Below, one piece after another: positions 44,648-57,770 of a stretch of DNA of 64,000 nucleotides. The translations under genes and the position numbers were made by a program. The notes under the pieces were generated by a model. It ran no database searches. It had not been told where the DNA came from and was given only the letters and a program-made list of their open reading frames with translations. The DNA comes from Aromatoleum anaerobium. GTDB lineage: Bacteria > Pseudomonadota > Gammaproteobacteria > Burkholderiales > Rhodocyclaceae. Each line of letters starts with the position of its first letter. The stretch's first letter is position 1. The stretch covers positions 124,001 through 188,000 of the forward strand of contig NZ_WTVG02000035.1 in the NCBI RefSeq assembly GCF_012910705.2. Reading direction: 5' to 3'.

Positions 44648-44737
44648 TCTGGAAAATATGCAAAGAGCAATGACGTAATTCCTCGTCAAATGCCATAAGG
44701 ATTGTCAGGATCACGCAACCCCACCCGCGAGGTTGCC

Positions 44738-45721
44738 GTGAGCCAGACCGATCGCATCGTCCGCATCCGCGCGCTGCTCGACCAGCGGCGCGCCGTCAGC
44801 CGCCGGACGCTGCTCGACACGCTCGAAATCTCCGCCGCGACGCTCAAGCGTGACATCGCCTTCCTGCGCGACGCGATGAATACCCCGATCGTGTGGGACC
44901 GCGAACTCGGCGGCTACCGCCTCGATCTCGCCCAGACCCGCGGCGCGCAATACGAACTGCCCGGCCTGTGGTTCTCCGACAAGGAAATCCACGCACTGCT
45001 GACGATGCAGCATCTCCTCGCCAACCTCGACCCCGGCGGCCTCCTCGCCCCGCACGTGCAGCCGCTCGTCGCCCGCCTCGACAAACTGCTCGGCGCCGCC
45101 GAACACGCCGCCGACGAAGTCCGGCGCCGCGTGCTGATCGTCGGCATCGGCAAGCGCAGCATGAAACTCGCCCACTTCGAAAACATCGGCTCCGCGCTGC
45201 TGCGGCGCAAACGCCTCGCGATCCGCTACTACGCCCGCGGCCAGGACGAAGAGTCGACACGCGAGATCTCCCCGCAGCGCCTCGTCCACTACCGCGAAAA
45301 CTGGTACCTCGACGCCTGGTGCCACCTGCGCGGCGCCCTGCGCAACTTCGCCGTCGACAGCATCCGCAAGGTGGAACTGCTCGAACGAACGGCGAAAGAC
45401 GTGGCGAACTGCACCCTCGACACGGTCCTCGGCCCGGGCTACGGCATCTTCGCCGGCGAACAGTTGCAATGGGCGAAGCTGCGCTTCTCTGCCGAACGCG
45501 CCCGCTGGGTCGCCACGGAACACTGGCATCCGCAGCAAAAAGGGGCGTTCGAGGAGGATGGCAGCTACGTGCTGGAAGTGCCGTATGCGGACCACCGGGA
45601 ATTGGTGATGGATGTGCTGAAGCACGGGACGCATTGCGAGGTGCTGGGGCCGGAGGAGTTGCGGGGGGTTGTGGCGGCGGAAGTGGTGGCCATGTCGGCC
45701 AAATATCCAGTCAGAAAATGA
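44738..45721 (+). CDS. WYL-domain transcriptional regulator upstream of cas3
   Basis: The 327-residue protein has an N-terminal HTH (RALLDQRRAVSRRTLLDTLE, SAATLKRDIAFLRDAM) and a central WYL domain (ISPQRLVHYRENWYLDAWCH), plus the C-terminal extension FEEDGSYVLEVPYADHRELV. WYL regulators often sit next to CRISPR-Cas loci and can repress or activate cas genes in response to nucleic-acid ligands. It reads towards cas3, with 66 bp between the genes. The start is the GTG at 44738, preceded by GAGG. Its role in this locus is inferred from position. Confidence 0.88.
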   Translation: MSQTDRIVRIRALLDQRRAVSRRTLLDTLEISAATLKRDIAFLRDAMNTPIVWDRELGGYRLDLAQTRGAQYELPGLWFSDKEIHALLTMQHLLANLDPGGLLAPHVQPLVARLDKLLGAAEHAADEVRRRVLIVGIGKRSMKLAHFENIGSALLRRKRLAIRYYARGQDEESTREISPQRLVHYRENWYLDAWCHLRGALRNFAVDSIRKVELLERTAKDVANCTLDTVLGPGYGIFAGEQLQWAKLRFSAERARWVATEHWHPQQKGAFEEDGSYVLEVPYADHRELVMDVLKHGTHCEVLGPEELRGVVAAEVVAMSAKYPVRK

Positions 45722-45787: not shown

Positions 45788-48442
45788 ATGATTCAATTCT
45801 CGAGACTGTCGGCCGCGTGCCGCTATGTATGGGCCAAGAGCGGCGAAGGACACGGCCATGGGGTGCTCGCCCATATGCTAGACGTGGCCGCGGTCGCGAC
45901 CGCGATCCTCGAGCGCGAGGCGCCCAGCACCCGAAGTTGGATAGCCCGCAACTTCGCACTGCCGTTTGATTCGGCGGTGCGATGGTTAGCGACAATCGTC
46001 GGCCTCCATGACTTTGGCAAGGGGATCACGGGCTTTCAGGCGAAATGGCCGGAAGGGCGACAAGTTGATGAGTCCGCCGGTTTGCCGTTCGCGCCACGCA
46101 ACCTCGAACCCCACGACCATGCGGCCGCGACATGGGCTCTGCTGCGAGCACTGCTGAGCGAAAAGATCGAACATCGGGGCTGGATCAGCGGCGTCCTGCA
46201 GGGGATCAGCGCACACCACGGTTTCAACTACCTGCGACCAGAAATTGAACGCGCACGACCGGCATATGAAGCGACCGCTTGGACCGACACGCGGCAGGAG
46301 CTCTTCGATGCCTACTGGCAAACGATGGCACCTATTGGCCAGCCCACGTGCGAAGCGCTGTCGCTTACTGCCGTCGAGTGGCTGGCGGGGCTCACAAGTG
46401 TTGCCGACTGGATCGGTTCCAATGCTGAGTGGTTCCCGCTTGGTGAACGGGCCGATGACCTGACCAAACACTTCGACGCAGCCAGGCAACTAGCCGAACG
46501 CGCACTCGATCGCATCGGCTGGCCGCATTTCCGCCCGCTTCTGGCCGGAGTGGAAGACATCGACCGCCTGATCCGACGCATTATTGGCACTGACGACGAA
46601 GTCCGGGCTCGCCCCCTTCAGGCCACCGCCGACACGCTGCTTGCGAGTGCCGACGGACCGACGTTACTGATCGTCGAAGCCCCCATGGGCGAAGGCAAGA
46701 CTGAACTGGCTATGCTGGCCCACCTGCGCTTGCAAGCGGCAAACCATCACCGGGGCCTCTACGTCGCCCTGCCGACGCAGGCGACCGGCAACGCGATGTT
46801 CGACCGCACCTTGAGTTTTCTGCGCGCTTTCACCGATGGCATGCCGCTCGATATCCAGCTCGCCCATGGCGGCGCCGTGCTGGATGAGCGCGTCGCACAT
46901 CTGCGCGGCATTCACGGAGAACCGGGCGACAATGTGAGTTCTTCGGCCTGGTTCTCCCAACGTCGTCGTGCGCTGATCTCGCCCTATGGCGTCGGCACCA
47001 TTGATCAGGCGCTGTTCGCGACGCTCAACGTCAAGCATCACTTCGTACGCCTGTGGGGCTTGGCCAACCGGGTCGTCGTCCTCGACGAAGTGCACGCCTA
47101 CGACACTTACACCAGCGGCCTGATCGCCGCGCTGCTGCGCTGGTTGAAGGCGCTCAACTGCTCGGTTGTACTGATGAGTGCGACGCTTCCACGGAAACGC
47201 CAGACGGAACTGCTGGCTGCGTGGGGCATTGCGAAATCCGACGTGCCGACACTCGCCTACCCACGCCTGCTTGCAGCACATCAAGGGGGAATCATCGGAG
47301 ATACCGTCGCAGCCCGCCCGTTACCCCCAATTAACGTGCACGGCATCGCGGAGGCGCCGGAAGCACTCGCCGCTCACGCGATGGCACAGCTCGCATCGGG
47401 CGGTTGCGGCGCCATCGTCGTCAATACCGTGGACCGCGCCCAACAACTATATCGGCTGTTGCATGATCAGCTTTCCGCCGACTGCACATTGATGCTGTTT
47501 CATGCCCGCTATCCCGCCGACGAGCGCAGCCAGCGCGAACGGGCAGTCCTGGGCTCCTTCGGCCGGAACGGAAAACGCCCGGCCCGTGCCCTGCTGATCG
47601 CCACTCAAGTGGCGGAACAGAGCCTGGATATCGACTTCGATTTCATGATCTCCGACCTTGCTCCGATCGACCTCCTGCTCCAGCGCGCCGGACGTCTGCA
47701 CCGGCACGAGCGTACGCGCCCCGACGCACACAGCGAGGCGCAACTCGCGGTCGCCGGCCTGATCGCGGGGCGCTTTCCAGAGCTCAAGGAAACGGCGTGG
47801 CAGTACGTGTACGACGCCTATATCCTCGGTCGTACCTGGGCGCTGACCGCAAGCGAGACCGTATGGCAGTTGCCGCACGATATCGACCGGCTGGTCCAGC
47901 GTGTCTACGACGACGACGTCGAACTACCGGATGACCTTTCAGCGGAAGATCGCAAACGCATCGACGAAAGTACCTACGGCGAGCACCGCGCCAAGGAACA
48001 GCAAGAGTTTCTCTATGCCATGCATGCAGCCATCGACGCCGATGCCGAACCCCAGCATGCCTACGCGGACAAACCCCGCGGCAATGAGGAAGGCGAGGGG
48101 TTGGGCATCCGCAATCGCACTCGTCTGGGCGATGACGGCATCACAGTCGTTCCCGTCTGGGTGTCGGACACAGGTTGGCGCGTACATCCGGACGAGCCCC
48201 CATTCAACCCTGAGGAACCGGCATCCGACGCCTTGGCACACCGCCTGTTTGCCCGTCAGCTCAAATTGAGCCACAAGGCCGTAGTCGCCGAGCTCGGCGC
48301 TGTCGAGCCCCCCCGCTGCTTCACCGAGCACCCCCTGCTACGAAACCTGAAACCCCTGCGTTTCGCCGACGGCCACGCCACAGCAGGCGACCTGACACTA
48401 CGGCTCGATCCGGAGTTGGGGCTGGTTTATGACAAGGGCTGA
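45788..48442 (+). CDS. cas3: Cas3, type I-E helicase-nuclease
   Basis: The 884-residue protein has an N-terminal HD nuclease domain (HMLDVAA at about 29; the HD pair in GLHDFGKG at about 74; HHGF further on) and a superfamily-2 helicase. Walker A is APMGEGKTELAM (about 298-305), Walker B is VVLDEVHAYD (about 435) and the SAT motif is LMSATLP. The last helicase motif is ATQVAEQSLDIDFD, followed by QRAGRLHRH. It degrades DNA recruited by Cascade. All catalytic motifs are present. It is separated from cse1 by 303 bp, an unusually long gap inside a cas operon. Confidence 0.96.
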   Translation: MIQFSRLSAACRYVWAKSGEGHGHGVLAHMLDVAAVATAILEREAPSTRSWIARNFALPFDSAVRWLATIVGLHDFGKGITGFQAKWPEGRQVDESAGLPFAPRNLEPHDHAAATWALLRALLSEKIEHRGWISGVLQGISAHHGFNYLRPEIERARPAYEATAWTDTRQELFDAYWQTMAPIGQPTCEALSLTAVEWLAGLTSVADWIGSNAEWFPLGERADDLTKHFDAARQLAERALDRIGWPHFRPLLAGVEDIDRLIRRIIGTDDEVRARPLQATADTLLASADGPTLLIVEAPMGEGKTELAMLAHLRLQAANHHRGLYVALPTQATGNAMFDRTLSFLRAFTDGMPLDIQLAHGGAVLDERVAHLRGIHGEPGDNVSSSAWFSQRRRALISPYGVGTIDQALFATLNVKHHFVRLWGLANRVVVLDEVHAYDTYTSGLIAALLRWLKALNCSVVLMSATLPRKRQTELLAAWGIAKSDVPTLAYPRLLAAHQGGIIGDTVAARPLPPINVHGIAEAPEALAAHAMAQLASGGCGAIVVNTVDRAQQLYRLLHDQLSADCTLMLFHARYPADERSQRERAVLGSFGRNGKRPARALLIATQVAEQSLDIDFDFMISDLAPIDLLLQRAGRLHRHERTRPDAHSEAQLAVAGLIAGRFPELKETAWQYVYDAYILGRTWALTASETVWQLPHDIDRLVQRVYDDDVELPDDLSAEDRKRIDESTYGEHRAKEQQEFLYAMHAAIDADAEPQHAYADKPRGNEEGEGLGIRNRTRLGDDGITVVPVWVSDTGWRVHPDEPPFNPEEPASDALAHRLFARQLKLSHKAVVAELGAVEPPRCFTEHPLLRNLKPLRFADGHATAGDLTLRLDPELGLVYDKG

Positions 48443-48477
48443 AAAGCGAAATGACGGCAACAGCTGTAGGCGTAAGT

Positions 48478-48512
48478 ATGCGGGACGACGGGAAGTCCCC
48501 GCCGCCCCGCAT
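48478..48512 (-). terminator. Long hairpin ending the candidate guide RNA
   Basis: Bases 48478-48492 and 48498-48512 form a 15-bp stem around a short loop. In minus-strand RNA the two non-Watson-Crick positions become G-U wobbles, while on the plus strand they are A-C mismatches. This supports a minus-strand transcript. There is no strong U-tract after it, so it may protect the 3' end or terminate weakly. Confidence 0.6.
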
Positions 48513-48597
48513 ACAGCCCCGCGAGGCGGGGAATACCTTGCGTAACCGACAGCAGCAACACTGAACAAGGTCCATCCCCGTGCAGACGGGGAAACAG
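48508..48597 (-). ncRNA. Candidate CreR-like guide RNA: degenerate repeat - spacer - degenerate repeat
   Basis: On the minus strand a 30-nt repeat-like element (48597-48568) is followed by a 31-nt spacer (48567-48537) and a second 29-nt element (48536-48508). The first element has the stem CCCCGT-CTGC-ACGGGG, the same 6-bp stem and 4-nt loop as the genomic repeat, and ends in the handle-like ATGGACCT (genomic handle ATGAACCG). The second has the stem CCCCGC-CTC-GCGGGG after GTATT. Cas6e cleavage at the stem base would release an 8-nt handle and a spacer starting TGTTCAGTGTTG. The first 11 nt of this spacer match a site at the cse1 promoter except at position 6. No protein gene fits this gap. 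The role as a self-repressing guide is inferred from sequence. Confidence 0.8.
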
Positions 48598-48604
48598 CCC
48601 TGCG

Positions 48605-48610
48605 ATTGTA
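48605..48610 (-). promoter_or_regulatory. -10 box of the candidate guide RNA
   Basis: TACAAT on the minus strand (48610-48605) matches the -10 consensus at five of six bases. It would start transcription close to 48598, the first base of the repeat-like element. A weak -35 (CTGCGT, 48633-48628) lies 17 bp upstream. Confidence 0.55.
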
Positions 48611-48633
48611 TCGAGAGCAACGCCAGGACGCAG

Positions 48634-48668
48634 TGCCATGAATGCGTTTCGTATAACACGGAACACTT
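48634..48668 (-). promoter_or_regulatory. Predicted Cascade target site (protospacer plus AAG PAM) at the cse1 promoter
   Basis: Minus strand 48668-48666 reads AAG, the main type I-E interference PAM. The next 12 bases read TGTTCCGTGTTA, against TGTTCAGTGTTG in the mini-array spacer. Positions 1-5 and 7-11 match. Positions 6 and 12 differ, and these are the bases flipped out and ignored in Cascade. From position 12 onwards the match is lost, which favours binding without DNA destruction. The PAM abuts the putative -35 box at 48668. Confidence 0.78.
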
Positions 48669-48696
48669 TGCATAGTTTAATTACATATGCTAATTT
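48668..48696 (+). promoter_or_regulatory. Putative cse1 (Cascade operon) promoter
   Basis: TTGCAT (48668-48673) and TAATTT (48691-48696) are separated by 17 bp. TG at 48688-48689 provides an extended -10 element. The region is strikingly AT-rich for this genome. It lies about 50 bp before the cse1 start. Confidence 0.6.
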
Positions 48697-48745
48697 GATT
48701 CTACGAAACACCACCTCCGCACTTTCTTGAGCGAGGACACATGCG

Positions 48746-50335
48746 ATGACACGCAGCTTCAACCTGTTGGACGAACCGTGGATTCCGGTGCACTTCGGCA
48801 CAGGCGAACGCCGGGAGATCGGACTGATCGAGCTCTTCAAGCGCGCCAATGACATCACTGCGCTGACCGAAACGTCGCCCCCCAACCTGATCGCGCTGCA
48901 TCGCCTGCTGCTGGCGATCACCCATCGGGCGCTGATTCAAACGAAGGGCAACTGGAAGGATAGGGACCGGGCGGAGTGGTACCGCAAGGGCTTACCGCCT
49001 GATGCCCTGCGCGGCTATCTCGAACAATGGCGGGATCGCTTCTGGCTATTCCACCCGGAACATCCGTTCATGCAGGTCGCCGCACTGGCCGAGGCAGCGG
49101 AAACGCGAGACAAGACAAAACCCTGGACTCAGATCACGCTGGACAGCGCCAACGGCAATGCACCAGTGGTATTCGATCATTCGGTCGACACAATCCCGTC
49201 CGCAATTTTGCCTGCGCAGGCCCTTCGCAACCTCTTGGGTTTCCTGCAATTCACGCCGGGTGGCCTCGTCAAGGTGATTCGCGGTTCGGACAAAGCGGGG
49301 GCACTGGCGAACACGGCGGCAGTGTTGCCGCTTGGCCAAAGCCTGAATCAGACCTTGTGTCTGGCGCTTCATCCGTCGAGTCGCGCCAGCGAATACGATC
49401 TTCCCGCGTGGGAATCCACACCGCCGATGCTTGCCGCGCTGAGCGCCGATTCTCGCCTTGCCACCGGACCGTGCGACCGCTACACCCGCCTGTCGCGCGC
49501 TGTGTTGTTCATCCGGGACGACGACACGTCCGGCATTCGTCACATTCGGTTTGCCGCCGGACTGGCGCTGGCCGACGATGCAAACGCACCGGACCCGATG
49601 GCAAGCTACCGGATCGGCACAAACGGCCCGGTTCGCGTTTCCTTCACCGAAGGACGTGCGGTATGGCGGGATCTTTCATCGCTGATGCCGGATAGCAGCG
49701 GCAAGCTTGCCATTCCCGCCAGCGTCCTCGCATGGGCCGCGGCGCTCCACGAAGCAACGGATACGTGGGATGCAGAAGTGCCAGTACTTGTTGCCGGACT
49801 GGCCAGCGACCAGGCCAAGCTGCTGCGCTGGCGCTCGGAACGCTTCACCCTCCCGGCGCCCCTCCTGCTCAACCCCGATGCGGGAATGCTACTGCGGCAA
49901 CAACTCAAAGCGGCCGACGACACCTGGTTCCGCTTGCGTGGCATCGCCGCCGACATGATCGCGGAGACGATGCCCGATCCGGCCAGCAAGGACACACGCA
50001 CACGGGCTCGGGCAGTGCTCGACAACGGCCCGTGCGCGGCAGCCTACTTTGCCAATGCCGAACGTTCCCTGCCCCGCCTGTTGCAGCGCATCGCCAACGG
50101 GGAGATCGACGAGGCTGACAGCCACTGGCGCAACACTCTCGCCGTCTCAGCACAGAACGCATGGGAAGCGGTTTGCCGAAGTCTCGGACAATCGACAGAA
50201 GCCATTCGCGCCGAAGCGCGGACCCATTTCAGGTTGCGCCTCTTGCTGCGCGAATTGCGCGGCGAAGTTGCCGGCACCGCCAGACCAACCCCAAAGACCG
50301 AACCCAGCATTGAAGCCGAGGAGGTATATCCGTGA
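48746..50335 (+). CDS. cse1: Cse1 (Cas8e/CasA), large subunit of Cascade
   Basis: The 529-residue protein is the PAM-reading large subunit of type I-E Cascade. The N-terminus (FNLLDEPWIPVHFGTGERRE, IGLIELFKRANDITAL) and the segments WRDRFWLFHPEHPFMQVAAL and KAGALANTAAVLPLGQSLNQ are typical of Cse1. The ATG at 48746 follows GAGCGAGG. Its stop overlaps the cse2 GTG by 3 bp. It is the first gene of the effector operon, downstream of the candidate guide RNA and promoter region. Confidence 0.95.
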   Translation: MTRSFNLLDEPWIPVHFGTGERREIGLIELFKRANDITALTETSPPNLIALHRLLLAITHRALIQTKGNWKDRDRAEWYRKGLPPDALRGYLEQWRDRFWLFHPEHPFMQVAALAEAAETRDKTKPWTQITLDSANGNAPVVFDHSVDTIPSAILPAQALRNLLGFLQFTPGGLVKVIRGSDKAGALANTAAVLPLGQSLNQTLCLALHPSSRASEYDLPAWESTPPMLAALSADSRLATGPCDRYTRLSRAVLFIRDDDTSGIRHIRFAAGLALADDANAPDPMASYRIGTNGPVRVSFTEGRAVWRDLSSLMPDSSGKLAIPASVLAWAAALHEATDTWDAEVPVLVAGLASDQAKLLRWRSERFTLPAPLLLNPDAGMLLRQQLKAADDTWFRLRGIAADMIAETMPDPASKDTRTRARAVLDNGPCAAAYFANAERSLPRLLQRIANGEIDEADSHWRNTLAVSAQNAWEAVCRSLGQSTEAIRAEARTHFRLRLLLRELRGEVAGTARPTPKTEPSIEAEEVYP

Positions 50336-52071: not shown

Positions 52072-52734
52072 ATGCCGACTCTGCTCTTGCGACTGGCCGG
52101 CCCGATGCAGTCATGGGGTACCACCAGCCGCTTCGATGAACGCGACACCCAACTCGAGCCCTCCAAATCCGGCGTCCTCGGCCTCGTTTGCGCTGCGCTA
52201 GGACGCGACCGGGCCGAGGCAATCGACGATCTTGCCGCTTTGCGCATGGGCGTTCGGGTGGACCAGGAAGGCATCCTGATGCGTGACTACCAGACCGCCA
52301 CCGGCGTCATGATTGCCACAGGCAAGGCCGACCTTAAGCGCACGGTCGTCAGCCCGCGCTACTACCTGGCCGATGCCGCGTTTCTCGTCGGACTGGAAGG
52401 CTCAGACCGCAGACTGCTCGAATCCATACAACAAGCATTGCGAGCACCGGTTTGGCCGCTTTCACTCGGCCGCAAGAGTTTTCCGCCAAGCCAACCGGTC
52501 TGGCTGCCGGACGGCCTGCGGGAGTCAGACCTGGAAACCGCGCTGCGCCAGGAGCCGGCCATCGCGGAGCCGCAGAGGGAGCACACGGGTCATGGCGTTC
52601 GGCTGATGACGGAGCATGCATCGGAAGGCGCCGTCCGGCTGGACCAGCCCCTCGCCCCATTCGCCACGCGCCGCTTCGGGCCGCGCTTTGTTCGTTCAGG
52701 AGTGGTCGATGTACTTATCCAAGCTCATCCTTGA
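52072..52734 (+). CDS. cas5e: Cas5e (CasD) of Cascade
   Basis: The 220-residue RAMP protein binds the crRNA 5' handle. It shows the CasD start (LLLRLAGPMQSWGTTSRFDE), RDTQLEPSKSGVLGLVCAAL and a Gly/Pro-rich thumb (SLGRKSFPPSQPVWLPDGLR). It overlaps the cas6e start by 26 bp, which couples their translation. Confidence 0.93.
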   Translation: MPTLLLRLAGPMQSWGTTSRFDERDTQLEPSKSGVLGLVCAALGRDRAEAIDDLAALRMGVRVDQEGILMRDYQTATGVMIATGKADLKRTVVSPRYYLADAAFLVGLEGSDRRLLESIQQALRAPVWPLSLGRKSFPPSQPVWLPDGLRESDLETALRQEPAIAEPQREHTGHGVRLMTEHASEGAVRLDQPLAPFATRRFGPRFVRSGVVDVLIQAHP

Positions 52735-53341
52735 CCACGGCCATCCGCAGGCGCGACGCGATCTTGCCGACGCGTACGAGATGCACCGGACCTTGTGCCG
52801 TGCATTTTCTCCACTTGCCGATGCCCCACCCAAGCGCTTCTTGTGGCGCGCCGAGTACAACAACGGTCACACTGACACCGATGGCGCCGTTGTTCTGGTG
52901 CAATCGACTGAGCCGGGCGACTGGCAAACGCTGCTCGCCCAGCATGACTATGCTCGACAACTCCATGCCAACAAGAATGTGGATCTTGGCGCGCTCCTGC
53001 GACAAGGCCGACGCTACCATTTCCGCATTGTGGCCAATCCTACCGTCACGCGCGCCGGGAAACGCTATGGGCTGTCACAGGAGGACGAACAGCAAGCGTG
53101 GCTCGCACGCCAGGGAGAACGTTATGGCTTCCGGCTCCTCGAGGCCGTCCGTGGCAGCAGCGAACGCCTGACGGTCAGGCAGCACAACAAGGGGAACAGG
53201 ATTACGGTTCAGACCGTACGGTTTGACGGGATCCTGGAAGCCGCCAATGTAGAAGCGCTCGGAAAGGGCCTGCTCTGCGGCATCGGGCACGGCAAGGCGC
53301 TCGGACTGGGAATGCTGTCCCTTGCCCCAGCGCGCGGCTGA
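52709..53341 (+). CDS. cas6e: Cas6e (CasE), crRNA-processing endoribonuclease
   Basis: The 210-residue enzyme cuts the pre-crRNA at the base of each repeat hairpin. The catalytic His is in ADAYEMHRTLCRAF (about residue 26), the middle has RRYHFRIVANPTVTRAGKR, and the C-terminal glycine-rich loop GKGLLCGIGHGKALGLGML is intact. The ATG at 52709 is chosen because MYLSKLILD is the family start. It is the last Cascade gene. A toxin-antitoxin pair, not cas1, follows immediately. Confidence 0.94.
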   Translation: MYLSKLILDHGHPQARRDLADAYEMHRTLCRAFSPLADAPPKRFLWRAEYNNGHTDTDGAVVLVQSTEPGDWQTLLAQHDYARQLHANKNVDLGALLRQGRRYHFRIVANPTVTRAGKRYGLSQEDEQQAWLARQGERYGFRLLEAVRGSSERLTVRQHNKGNRITVQTVRFDGILEAANVEALGKGLLCGIGHGKALGLGMLSLAPARG

Positions 53342-53342
53342 G

Positions 53343-53368
53343 ATTGTTCTATCATTTGATAGCACAAT
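53343..53368. promoter_or_regulatory. 26-bp palindromic operator of the inserted toxin-antitoxin pair
   Basis: ATTGTTCTATC (53343-53353) and GATAGCACAAT (53358-53368) form an inverted repeat, 10 of 11 positions matching, around ATTT. It starts two bases after the cas6e stop and directly precedes the antitoxin starts. It is a likely binding site for the antitoxin and could set expression of the downstream cas1-cas2. Confidence 0.7.
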
Positions 53369-53387
53369 CATGAGATCGGGGCCGTCC

Positions 53388-53729
53388 ATGGAAACCTTCA
53401 CCGTCCGCGACCTGCGCGAGCGCACCGGGGAACTGATCCGGGGCGCCGAGGCGGGCAAACTGTCCGTCATCACCAAGCACGGCAACCCGGTCTTCGTGGC
53501 GGTCCCCTTCGATGACGCCCTGCTGGAAAGCGGGGTACGGACCTCGCTGGCGATCAAGCTGTTCGACGAGGGCACGGTCACGCTGGCCCAGGCTGCGAAG
53601 CTGGCCGGGCTCGGGATCGAGGAGATGATCGAGCGCACCGGCGCGGCAGGCGTGGCCGTGGTGCAGCAAACACCGGCCGAGCTGGACGAGGAGCTCGATG
53701 TGATCGCGCGTCATGGTCGTCGCCGATAG
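53388..53729 (+). CDS. Phd/YefM-like antitoxin fused to a UPF0175-like C-terminal domain
   Basis: The product is about 113 residues. The N-terminal half (ETFTVRDLRERTGELIRGAE, KLSVITKHGNPVFVAVPFDD) is a Phd/YefM antitoxin-type DNA-binding domain. The C-terminal half (LAIKLFDEGTVTLAQAAKLA, GIEEMIERTGAAGVAV) is the UPF0175/HTH-like segment found beside DUF3368 PIN toxins. An ATG at 53370 in the same frame is an alternative start. It lies inside the cas operon between cas6e and cas1 and overlaps the toxin gene by 17 bp. Confidence 0.82.
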   Translation: METFTVRDLRERTGELIRGAEAGKLSVITKHGNPVFVAVPFDDALLESGVRTSLAIKLFDEGTVTLAQAAKLAGLGIEEMIERTGAAGVAVVQQTPAELDEELDVIARHGRRR

Positions 53730-54195
53730 CGGACCGCTGATCGCGTTGGCACGACTGGAGCTGCTTCGGTTGCTGCCGAGCCATTTCGATGAAGTGCTGG
53801 TGCCCGATGAGGTCTTTGCCGAATGCACGATTCAGCCGCAGCGCCTCGGCGCCCGGGCGATTCTCGCCGCGCGCGAGTCCGGGTTGTTCGAGTGTGTCGC
53901 AGTGACGGGGACAGCGCAGTTTGCAGCAGACCATCTGCTCGGACGCGGCGAGGCGGCGGCGCTGATTCTGGCGCGGGACCGGGCCTGTCCTGCCCTTGTC
54001 GACGAACGCAAGGGACGCCGGGTCGCGCAGCAGCTTGGCATTCCGGTCGTGGGCACCGTCGGCATACTGCTTGCCGCACGACAAGCCGGCAACGTCGACG
54101 CGCTCTCGCCGCTTTTCGATGCGCTGGCCGCGTTCGGCTATCGAGTGCCGGCAGATCTGATGCGCGAAGCGCTTCGCCGCGCAGGAGAACTCTGA
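53713..54195 (+). CDS. DUF3368 PIN-domain toxin inside the cas operon
   Basis: The 160-residue PIN-like nuclease has the first acidic motif VVADSGPLIALARLELL, PDEVFAECTIQPQRLGARAI in the middle, GRGEAAALILARDRACPALV with the central acidic residue, and DERKGRRVAQQLGIPVVGTV. It pairs with the antitoxin encoded just upstream. Its stop lies two bases before the cas1 GTG, and the cas1 ribosome-binding site (AGGAG) lies inside its 3' end. Its expression and that of cas1 are therefore physically linked. Confidence 0.87.
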   Translation: MVVADSGPLIALARLELLRLLPSHFDEVLVPDEVFAECTIQPQRLGARAILAARESGLFECVAVTGTAQFAADHLLGRGEAAALILARDRACPALVDERKGRRVAQQLGIPVVGTVGILLAARQAGNVDALSPLFDALAAFGYRVPADLMREALRRAGEL

Positions 54196-56253: not shown

Positions 56254-56260
56254 GGGAATA

Positions 56261-56575
56261 CTAGTACCTCTGCACACAGAATTTGACAGGTTGATGGTCG
56301 GGCGAGCGCAGGAGGGGCAGGGCTTCGGGCGGGGCGAGGAGTCGGATGCTGCGTGCGACTCCAGGCTGTCGGCTGAGGAGTCCCAGGCGCTCGAGCGTGA
56401 GCACCATCTGATGCACCGAGGGTGGCGTGATGTGGAAGTAGCGTTGCAAGTCGGCTTCGGCCGGCGGCCGGCCGAGCACCTGAGTGTACGCATAGATGAA
56501 GGCGAGGTACTGCCCTTGCACCGGTGTGAAGCGCGGTGACGAAGGGGTGAGTTCCGCGTCGGAGTTCTGGCTCAT
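56261..56575 (-). CDS. LexA-like winged-helix accessory protein of the IS element
   Basis: The 104-residue protein (RFTPVQGQYLAFIYAYTQVL, EADLQRYFHITPPSVHQMVL, LERLGLLSRQPGVARSIRLL) resembles the winged-helix DNA-binding domain of LexA, without the protease part. It is divergent from the transposase, with 32 bp between the starts. A natural role is repression of the transposase. Its stop codon is TAG, formed from the CTAG target site outside the left end. So the reading frame is closed by host DNA that is always present because of the target preference. Confidence 0.75.
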   Translation of the reverse strand: MSQNSDAELTPSSPRFTPVQGQYLAFIYAYTQVLGRPPAEADLQRYFHITPPSVHQMVLTLERLGLLSRQPGVARSIRLLAPPEALPLLRSPDHQPVKFCVQRY

Positions 56576-57746
56576 TTGTTGTCTCTCCAGATTTTGGAGG
56601 GGCCGCGATGAATGTACGCTACCGGGTCGAATTGAGCCAAGCCGAACGCGACGAATTGAGGATGCTGCTGGGCGGCGGCAAGGCAGCGGTGCGCAAGGTG
56701 AAACGCGCGCAGATCCTGCTGGCGGCCGATGCCGGAGCCGGCGACGAGGAGATTGCCACGAACGTCGGAGTGGGCAGCTCGACGGTCTATCGGACCAAAC
56801 GCCGCTTCGTGCTGGGCAGCATCGAAGCGGCGCTCAGCGACGAGCCGCGCCCCGGGGCGGAGCGCAAGCTCACCGGCAAGGAAGAGGCGCTGCTGGTCGC
56901 CACGGCATGCACCAAGCCGCCAACGGGGCGGTCGCGCTGGACGCTCGAATTGCTGGCGGGGGAGATAGTCAAGCTCACCGAGCACGCGAGCCTGTCACGC
57001 GAGACGGTGCGCCGCCGCCTGGCGGAGAACGAGCTCAAGCCTTGGCGCCAGAAGATGTGGTGCATCCCGCAGGTCGACGGTCACTACGTTGCCCGGATGG
57101 AGGACGTGCTCGACCTCTACGCTGAAGTCCCCGATCCCGAGCGCCCGGTGGTCTGCTTCGATGAAAGTCCCACCCAGCTCATCGGCGAGGCGCGCCAGCC
57201 CATCCCGGCGATGCCCGGACAGCTCGAGCGCTACGACTACGAGTATCGCCGCAACGGGACCGCCAACCTGTTCGTCTTCCTCGACGCGCACCGGTCCTGG
57301 CGCCGGGTCAAGGTAACCGAGCAGCGCACCGCGCGCGACTTCGCCGAATGCATGCGCGAACTGGTCGACTGCCACTATCCGCAGGCCGAGCGTATCCGTG
57401 TCGTCCTCGACAACCTGTCGACCCATACGCCCGGCGCGCTCTATGAAGCCTTCCCGGCGCCCGAAGCTCATCGGTTGCTGCATCGTCTGGAATTCCATTA
57501 CACCCCCAAGCACGCCAGCTGGCTCAACATGGTCGAGATCGAAATCGGGGTGCTGCGCAGCCAGTGCCTCGACCGGCGCATCGGCGACCGCGACCGACTC
57601 GTCAGCGAAATTGCAGCTTGGGAGCAGCAGCGCAACGCCATCGGCGCTCGCATCCACTGGATGTTCACCACCGACCGCGCCCGGAGCAAACTGGCCCGCG
57701 CTTACCCGCACCCAGCCAAACAGTCATAACCTCTGTGCAGAGGTAC
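56264..57746 (+). mobile_element. IS630-family insertion sequence inside a CRISPR spacer (1,483 bp)
   Basis: The ends are imperfect 26-bp inverted repeats (both start GTACCTCTGCACA; 21 of 26 positions match). Each end is flanked by TA (56262-56263 and 57747-57748), and the target is CTAG, as is common in this family. Removing the element plus one TA joins ten and 22 bases into a 32-nt spacer between two repeats. The element carries a transposase gene and a divergent small regulator gene. Confidence 0.95.
56608..57729 (+). CDS. IS630-family DDE transposase
   Basis: The 373-residue transposase has an N-terminal HTH pair (ADAGAGDEEIATNVGVGSST) and the DDE catalytic core: the first Asp in VVCFDESPTQLIGE, the second in RVVLDNLSTHTPGALYEAF, and the Glu in SWLNMVEIEIGVL. 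It appears intact, so the element may still be mobile. Its stop lies inside the right inverted repeat. Confidence 0.95.
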   Translation: MNVRYRVELSQAERDELRMLLGGGKAAVRKVKRAQILLAADAGAGDEEIATNVGVGSSTVYRTKRRFVLGSIEAALSDEPRPGAERKLTGKEEALLVATACTKPPTGRSRWTLELLAGEIVKLTEHASLSRETVRRRLAENELKPWRQKMWCIPQVDGHYVARMEDVLDLYAEVPDPERPVVCFDESPTQLIGEARQPIPAMPGQLERYDYEYRRNGTANLFVFLDAHRSWRRVKVTEQRTARDFAECMRELVDCHYPQAERIRVVLDNLSTHTPGALYEAFPAPEAHRLLHRLEFHYTPKHASWLNMVEIEIGVLRSQCLDRRIGDRDRLVSEIAAWEQQRNAIGARIHWMFTTDRARSKLARAYPHPAKQS

Positions 57747-57770
57747 TAGTTACGCGGGTCGGTGGGGCAT

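Follow-up and report, generated by a model that had tools for sequence, protein, structure and literature searches.

A candidate self-repressing Cascade guide between cas3 and cse1 in Aromatoleum anaerobium and its counterparts in other type I-E CRISPR loci

Results

The window analyzed here is a 64,000-nt stretch of the Aromatoleum anaerobium genome (contig NZ_WTVG02000035.1, positions 124,001 to 188,000) that, by Pfam assignment, holds a type I-E CRISPR (clustered regularly interspaced short palindromic repeats) system in the order cas3, a 303-nt gap, cse1, cse2, cas7, cas5 and cas6e. Our subject is a small CRISPR-like element on the minus strand of that gap, which a sequence-only reading had proposed to be a CreR (cas-regulating RNA), a guide through which Cascade would repress its own promoter. 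The genes themselves lie on the plus strand: cas3 at 45788–48442 (Cas3_HD, 1.1e-39; Cas3-like_C_2; Cas3_C), cse1 (casA), with which the presumably repressed operon opens, at 48746–50335 (PF09481, E = 3.8e-93), and cas6e, the presumed CreR-processing nuclease, at 52616–53341 (PF08798, 8.5e-51). A long CRISPR array with the repeat GTGTTCCCCACGCCCGTGGGGATGAACCG and a period of mostly 61 nt lies beyond the cas6e side of the system.

Within the gap, two repeat-like hairpins on the minus strand enclose a 31-nt spacer and so form a mini-CRISPR. The first degenerate repeat, psiR1 (48568–48596), consists of the hairpin CCCCGT-CTGC-ACGGGG (48591–48576) followed by the 8-nt handle-like ATGGACCT (48575–48568), and its 5+16+8 layout is that of the array repeat, with the stem altered on both sides. 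The spacer (48537–48567) opens with the seed TGTTCaGTGTT at nts 1–11, and the second degenerate repeat, psiR2 (48517–48536), retains a hairpin, CCCCGC-CTC-GCGGGG (48531–48517), and has lost its own handle. The two repeats differ from one another and from the array repeat, unlike the near-identical repeats of an ordinary array, and, as expected of a CreR, a mini-CRISPR with degenerate repeats here adjoins cas genes of the matching type (I-E). On the 3' side of psiR2, fold prediction gives a terminator-like hairpin with no T run (48476–48514, minus strand); the sequence-only reading was right that a hairpin stands here, with 17 pairs predicted rather than the 15 it had counted. The guide RNA, this hairpin included, folds better than 200 of 200 shuffles (z = −5.3). 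A putative −10 element of the guide RNA, TACAAT, lies at 48605–48610 on the minus strand and was recognized from its letters, not as a match of our consensus scan. Judging from this layout and from type I-E processing, the mature RNA left by Cas6e cleavage is predicted to span 48517–48575 on the minus strand (59 nt) and would begin AUGGACCU.

The presumed target lies beside the putative cas promoter, which could be TTTGCA-16-GCTAAT or TTGCAT-17-TAATTT (48667–48696, plus strand) and whose −35 box overlaps the protospacer adjacent motif (PAM). On the minus strand at 48654–48668, the PAM AAG (48668–48666) is followed by the 12-nt seed protospacer TGTTCCGTGTTA (48665–48654); read as AAG plus TGTTCcGTGTTa, this target matches the spacer start TGTTCaGTGTTg at positions 1–5 and 7–11. 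If Cascade covers its usual length, the full 32-nt protospacer would span 48634–48665 on the minus strand, with continuous seed pairing ending at nt 11. A PAM with partial seed complementarity to a cas promoter, here a predicted one, is a further mark of a CreR. A single copy of AAGTGTTCNGTGTT is present in the genome (4,561,799 bases, 40 contigs), at this presumed cse1-promoter site. The hairpins, handle, 31-nt spacer, TACAAT and target with its AAG all stand where the sequence-only reading had placed them. Among 20,000 copies of the gap simulated with a first-order Markov model, 25 contained a 10/10 seed match on one strand or the other, none of them with AAG; a ten-base match is rare, as had been claimed, although about twice as frequent as the 0.0006 then estimated. 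Rfam returned sub-threshold matches only (the best, to Bcj11, scored 24.1 bits where the gathering score is 49), and a search of 72,556 plasmid records with the full 303-nt gap gave no match.

For comparison, type I-E loci were gathered by Cse1 searches, comprising 14 named loci and samples of genomes in which Cse1 was present in 4 of 101 relatives, 31 of 369 genomes from the class, 31 of 399 from the order, 20 of 398 from the phylum and 30 of 121 from one family; these groups partly overlap, and not every Cse1 match became a locus. Escherichia coli K-12 (L098) was added by choice and not from the family search, and the window is L036. Among the 125 loci measured, the gap between cas3 and cse1 was at least 80 nt in 41 and shorter in 65, and no cas3 end was found in 19. 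Our detector required a hairpin, a handle with at least 5/8 likeness to ATGAACCG, a seed matching in 9 or more of the 10 letters at positions 1–5 and 7–11, and a PAM of the AAG kind, all on the same strand.

The device was detected on the minus strand of 24 type I-E loci, the window and E. coli among them; 22 have a measured gap of at least 80 nt, and in the other two (L066 and L112) no cas3 end was found. The PAM was AAG in 22 of the 24, and the seed match was 10/10 in 15. A looser scan that dispenses with the hairpin added L104, L114 and L024 (the last with its target on the other strand), accepted for handles of 7–8/8, so that 25 of the 41 gaps of at least 80 nt carry a guide. These three are less sure than the rest because the same scan also gave chance-like matches: those in L026, L061, L086 and L109 were set aside for a handle of 5–6/8 or for the wrong PAM or strand, that in L091 consists of array repeats, and that in L116 is doubtful. 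For the guides in the gaps of L024 (10/10) and L116 (9/10), the strand opposite the guide holds the best AAG target, a possible orientation variant. The Cse1 of L030 is an open frame of 536, and the Cse1 match of L038 is interrupted by a stop.

In a swap control, guides called irrespective of any target (hairpin, handle of at least 6/8; n = 26) were matched to their own gap and to other gaps, excluding swapped pairs where the gap holds a guide of similar seed (at least 8 of 11). Four Rothia loci (L015–L018), whose guides use an AAC PAM and the opposite strand, were left out of this and of the spacer-length, pairing and promoter counts, as was L091, which holds a full array. A match of at least 9/10 with AAG on the same strand was found in the own gap for 21 of 26 guides and in 2 of 1392 swapped pairs, one of which, L099 on L100, joins related seeds. 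For 10/10 with AAG the counts were 12/26 and 0/1392; with no PAM rule they were 23/26 and 27/1392 at 9/10, and 14/26 and 2/1392 at 10/10.

Pairing was then profiled over 20 non-redundant loci, dropping the second members of similar-seed groups (L038, L100, L106 and L115). The positions selected by the detector paired in 20, 20, 19, 20 and 19 loci (nts 1–5) and in 20, 19, 17, 19 and 19 loci (nts 7–11). Position 6 and everything from 12 onward were not used for detection; there, pairing skips position 6 (3/20) and position 12 (4/20), returns at 13 (17/20), declines through 14 (12/20), 15 (11/20) and 16 (8/20), and is near background from 17. As read from these aligned letters, a skip at 6 and 12 with a return at 13 is the pattern that Cascade requires.

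Seed and target also change together. The nearest positives to the window in Cse1, L007 (57% identity) and L040 (54%), have 4 of 11 seed letters in common with it, and each guide matches its own target 10/10, the PAM of L040 being AAT. In one sampled family, L106, L107 and L110 have Cse1 proteins that are 76–86% identical and seeds that share 3 to 7 of 11 letters, and again each guide matches its own target 10/10. Between the guides of Rothia aerolata (10/10) and R. nasimurium (9/10), nts 5, 10 and 11 of the seed differ, and so do the corresponding positions of the target. The comparison of this gap in relatives that the sequence-only reading had called for thus came out in its favor, with covariation in relatives that keep the locus. 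The Rothia guides lie upstream of cse1 on the sense strand, opposite to the window's, with an AAC PAM.

Both repeats could be placed in 21 of 23 loci, where spacers fell into two length classes, 20–22 nt in 11 and 31–33 nt in 10, with none between although 7–36 nt was allowed; the classes lie about two six-base Cascade segments apart. Across 20 of these 21 loci, the 8 nt after the psiR2 hairpin resemble ATGAACCG at a mean of 2.65/8 compared with 7.15 for psiR1, which had been chosen for a handle score of 5 or more. Shortening a spacer to 24 nt in type I-B gives a guide that represses but supports neither interference nor priming (PMC10989794), and for this reason short guides may be a safety device.

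The cas −35 box seems to supply the PAM. In 19 loci (second members L030, L100, L106 and L115 dropped), the promoter-like score at the PAM averaged 7.26 compared with 6.05 elsewhere in the same gaps, and none of 20,000 draws was as high, in a comparison that preceded the correction of some cse1 starts (contig-end or split-match loci). The PAM thus tends to lie in that box, yet in 7 of 19 loci the score of the PAM site is reached by over half of the remaining positions, and in E. coli K-12 by 41%. The guide's own best-scoring −35 falls under the footprint of PAM plus 32 nt in 11 of 19 loci, a count of predicted promoters that has no null; the window is outside those 11, its guide −35 starting just beyond the footprint.

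In E. coli K-12 MG1655, the minus strand of the cas3–casA gap carries a CreR-like mini-array, with a hairpin followed by the handle ATAAACCG, and the seed TTATTgGTCTT matches AAG + TTATTcGTTTT upstream of casA at 9/10. Of 5426 E. coli genomes, 1126 contain a match to the gap region, which in 1104 of them covers at least 80% of the region's length, and in five further alleles that were read the 11-nt seed and the target are unchanged while spacer position 12 varies. An antisense promoter and transcript are known in this gap, and we know of no role assigned to that promoter. Passages of three articles deal with the cas promoter or the region only (PMC5675862, PMC5797941 and PMC3661553).

Other features of the window neighbor the system. 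A WYL-domain regulator (44702–45721) lies just upstream of cas3 and might act as a protein regulator of this system. Directly after cas6e (53322–54195), a UPF0175/Phd-like gene and then a DUF3368 gene form a toxin-antitoxin-like pair. The CRISPR array is split by a transposase-like open frame (56608–57729, IS630-like by reading only) between 34-nt inverted repeats (56260–57750), and resumes on both sides.

Discussion

Our results support a model in which the window element is a type I-E CreR, a guide that would lead Cascade to repress the presumed cse1 promoter; we put the probability of this at roughly 0.87. That the guide device is real is very probable because related systems carry it with different letters that match their own promoters. 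The self-repressing guide put forward by the sequence-only reading therefore gains from the comparison on two counts, the covariation of seed and target and the fit to the 1–5/7–11 rule known from the CreA guide. CreRs of types I-B, I-E and V-A were reportedly described by Liu et al. in 2023. The same three types are named in the excerpt of PMC13131331, which bears out the earlier statement that such guides are known outside type I-B, and CreR is described without naming types in that of PMC12948488. Like those CreRs, type I-E included (PMC13131331), the window element is a mini-CRISPR guide partly complementary to a cas promoter, in its case a predicted one. CreR in type I-E has already been reported, and the window element adds another member, not a new kind.

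Two other systems invite comparison. In type II-A, Cas9 is autorepressed by a long form of the trans-activating CRISPR RNA. There, as proposed for the window, a Cas effector represses its own promoter via a natural short guide, although effector and RNA are different and there is no mini-CRISPR. In type I-B, the two degenerate repeats of CreA, the guide of CreTA, are processed, and its nts 1–5 and 7–11 are needed whereas 6 and 12 are not (PMC8501985). CreA shares with the window two divergent repeats, an 8-nt handle, the 1–5/7–11 seed and a PAM in a promoter element, but it represses an RNA toxin, whereas the window target precedes cse1 (PMC8501985).

We propose that a short antisense RNA would start at the first degenerate repeat and be cut by Cas6e into a guide of ~59 nt resembling a CRISPR RNA (crRNA). 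Cascade loaded with this guide would recognize the AAG PAM overlapping the presumed cse1 −35 box and pair at nts 1–5 and 7–11, a stretch so short that Cas3 cleavage should not follow; parked there, it would block RNA polymerase on the cse1-cse2-cas7-cas5-cas6e operon. For Cascade binding in E. coli in vivo, an AAG PAM with as few as 5 seed nts is enough, mismatches at 19–32 left binding but no interference or priming, and every sixth base is flipped out on pairing (PMC5904413). Because of these short-pairing results, binding without cleavage is to be expected in the window. Since guide and crRNAs share one Cascade pool, plentiful crRNAs would ease repression, as would anti-CRISPR proteins that disable Cascade, in keeping with the published model in which abundant crRNAs compete with CreR for Cas proteins and relieve repression (PMC12737573). 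It follows that crRNA scarcity should deepen repression. The sequence-only reading had this reversed in stating that cas expression rises when crRNA is scarce; its companion statement, that expression rises when Cascade is inhibited, agrees with the model (PMC12737573).

Several observations weigh against this interpretation. The −35 that pairs with TACAAT is CTGCGT (48633–48628), a poor one, and a consensus scan of 48440–48760 found no standard sigma-70 promoter and no intrinsic terminator, which is why promoter and terminator are putative. The window guide pairs only to nt 11, while pairing at 13 occurs in 17 of 20 loci. Among the off-target sites that Cascade binds in E. coli, 45% match at position 6 (PMC5904413), so that the sixth base keeps some relevance there. 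Sixteen of the 41 loci with a measured gap of at least 80 nt gave no accepted guide, four of them with weak cas3 matches behind their gap values (L072 and L086) or a partial Cse1 profile (L039 and L094). Finally, our detector, applied to as much as 900 nt ahead of the first cas3 match, found no mini-CRISPR upstream of cas3 in any of 40 loci without such a gap, one of which gave no cas3 match; the device is thus not universal.

Of the alternatives, the one that survives best, though we consider it very improbable, is Cascade-independent control of cse1 or cas3 by the minus-strand RNA or its promoter, simply through antisense transcription or promoter interference. The divergent promoters would indeed lie close together, and the predicted guide −35 boxes under the footprint in 11 of 19 loci, the window excepted and with no null for the count, would suit such interference, but the handle, the two repeats, the PAM and the covariation of seed and target would be left unexplained. 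Slightly less probable again is a decayed array remnant that resembles the cse1 promoter by chance. Its repeats are degenerate, a single spacer is left, and a 10/10 match alone has a chance of ~0.001 in the gap (25/20,000); however, the match with AAG arose in 0 of 20,000 simulations, matches are far more frequent in own than in swapped gaps, and guides with unrelated seeds repeat the 5+1 pairing pattern. The least probable is a CreTA-like addiction module whose guide represses a toxin and not cas genes: CreA guides share the two degenerate repeats and the 1–5/7–11 rule, and six codons can be enough for a CreT frame (PMC8501985), but the first gene downstream of the target is cse1, no toxin gene was seen under the presumed promoter, and between the putative −10 and the start of cse1 just one further ATG frame is seen, ATG-CGA-TGA, which overlaps that start.

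Beyond the CreR in the window, the comparison suggests a broader model, for which we see about an even chance that all of its parts hold together. CreR would be the default regulator of split type I-E operons (25 of 41 gaps of at least 80 nt, 22 by the detector and 3 by the looser scan); its guides would come in two length classes, the shorter with two six-base segments removed so that cleavage is ruled out; the PAM would be borrowed from the cas −35 box; the guide would be self-limiting (11 of 19 loci); and what we take to be the antisense transcript of E. coli K-12 would be such a guide. A literature search, which did not cover the original CreR paper, found no description of the length classes, of a PAM drawn from the −35, of the self-limiting footprint or of the K-12 guide.

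E. coli K-12 is the easiest place to test a guide of this kind. Covariation turns a single-locus guess into a recognizable class and provides a simple rule for finding more of its members. If the model is true, control of the immune system would be tied to the supply of its own guides, via a guide that senses free Cascade.
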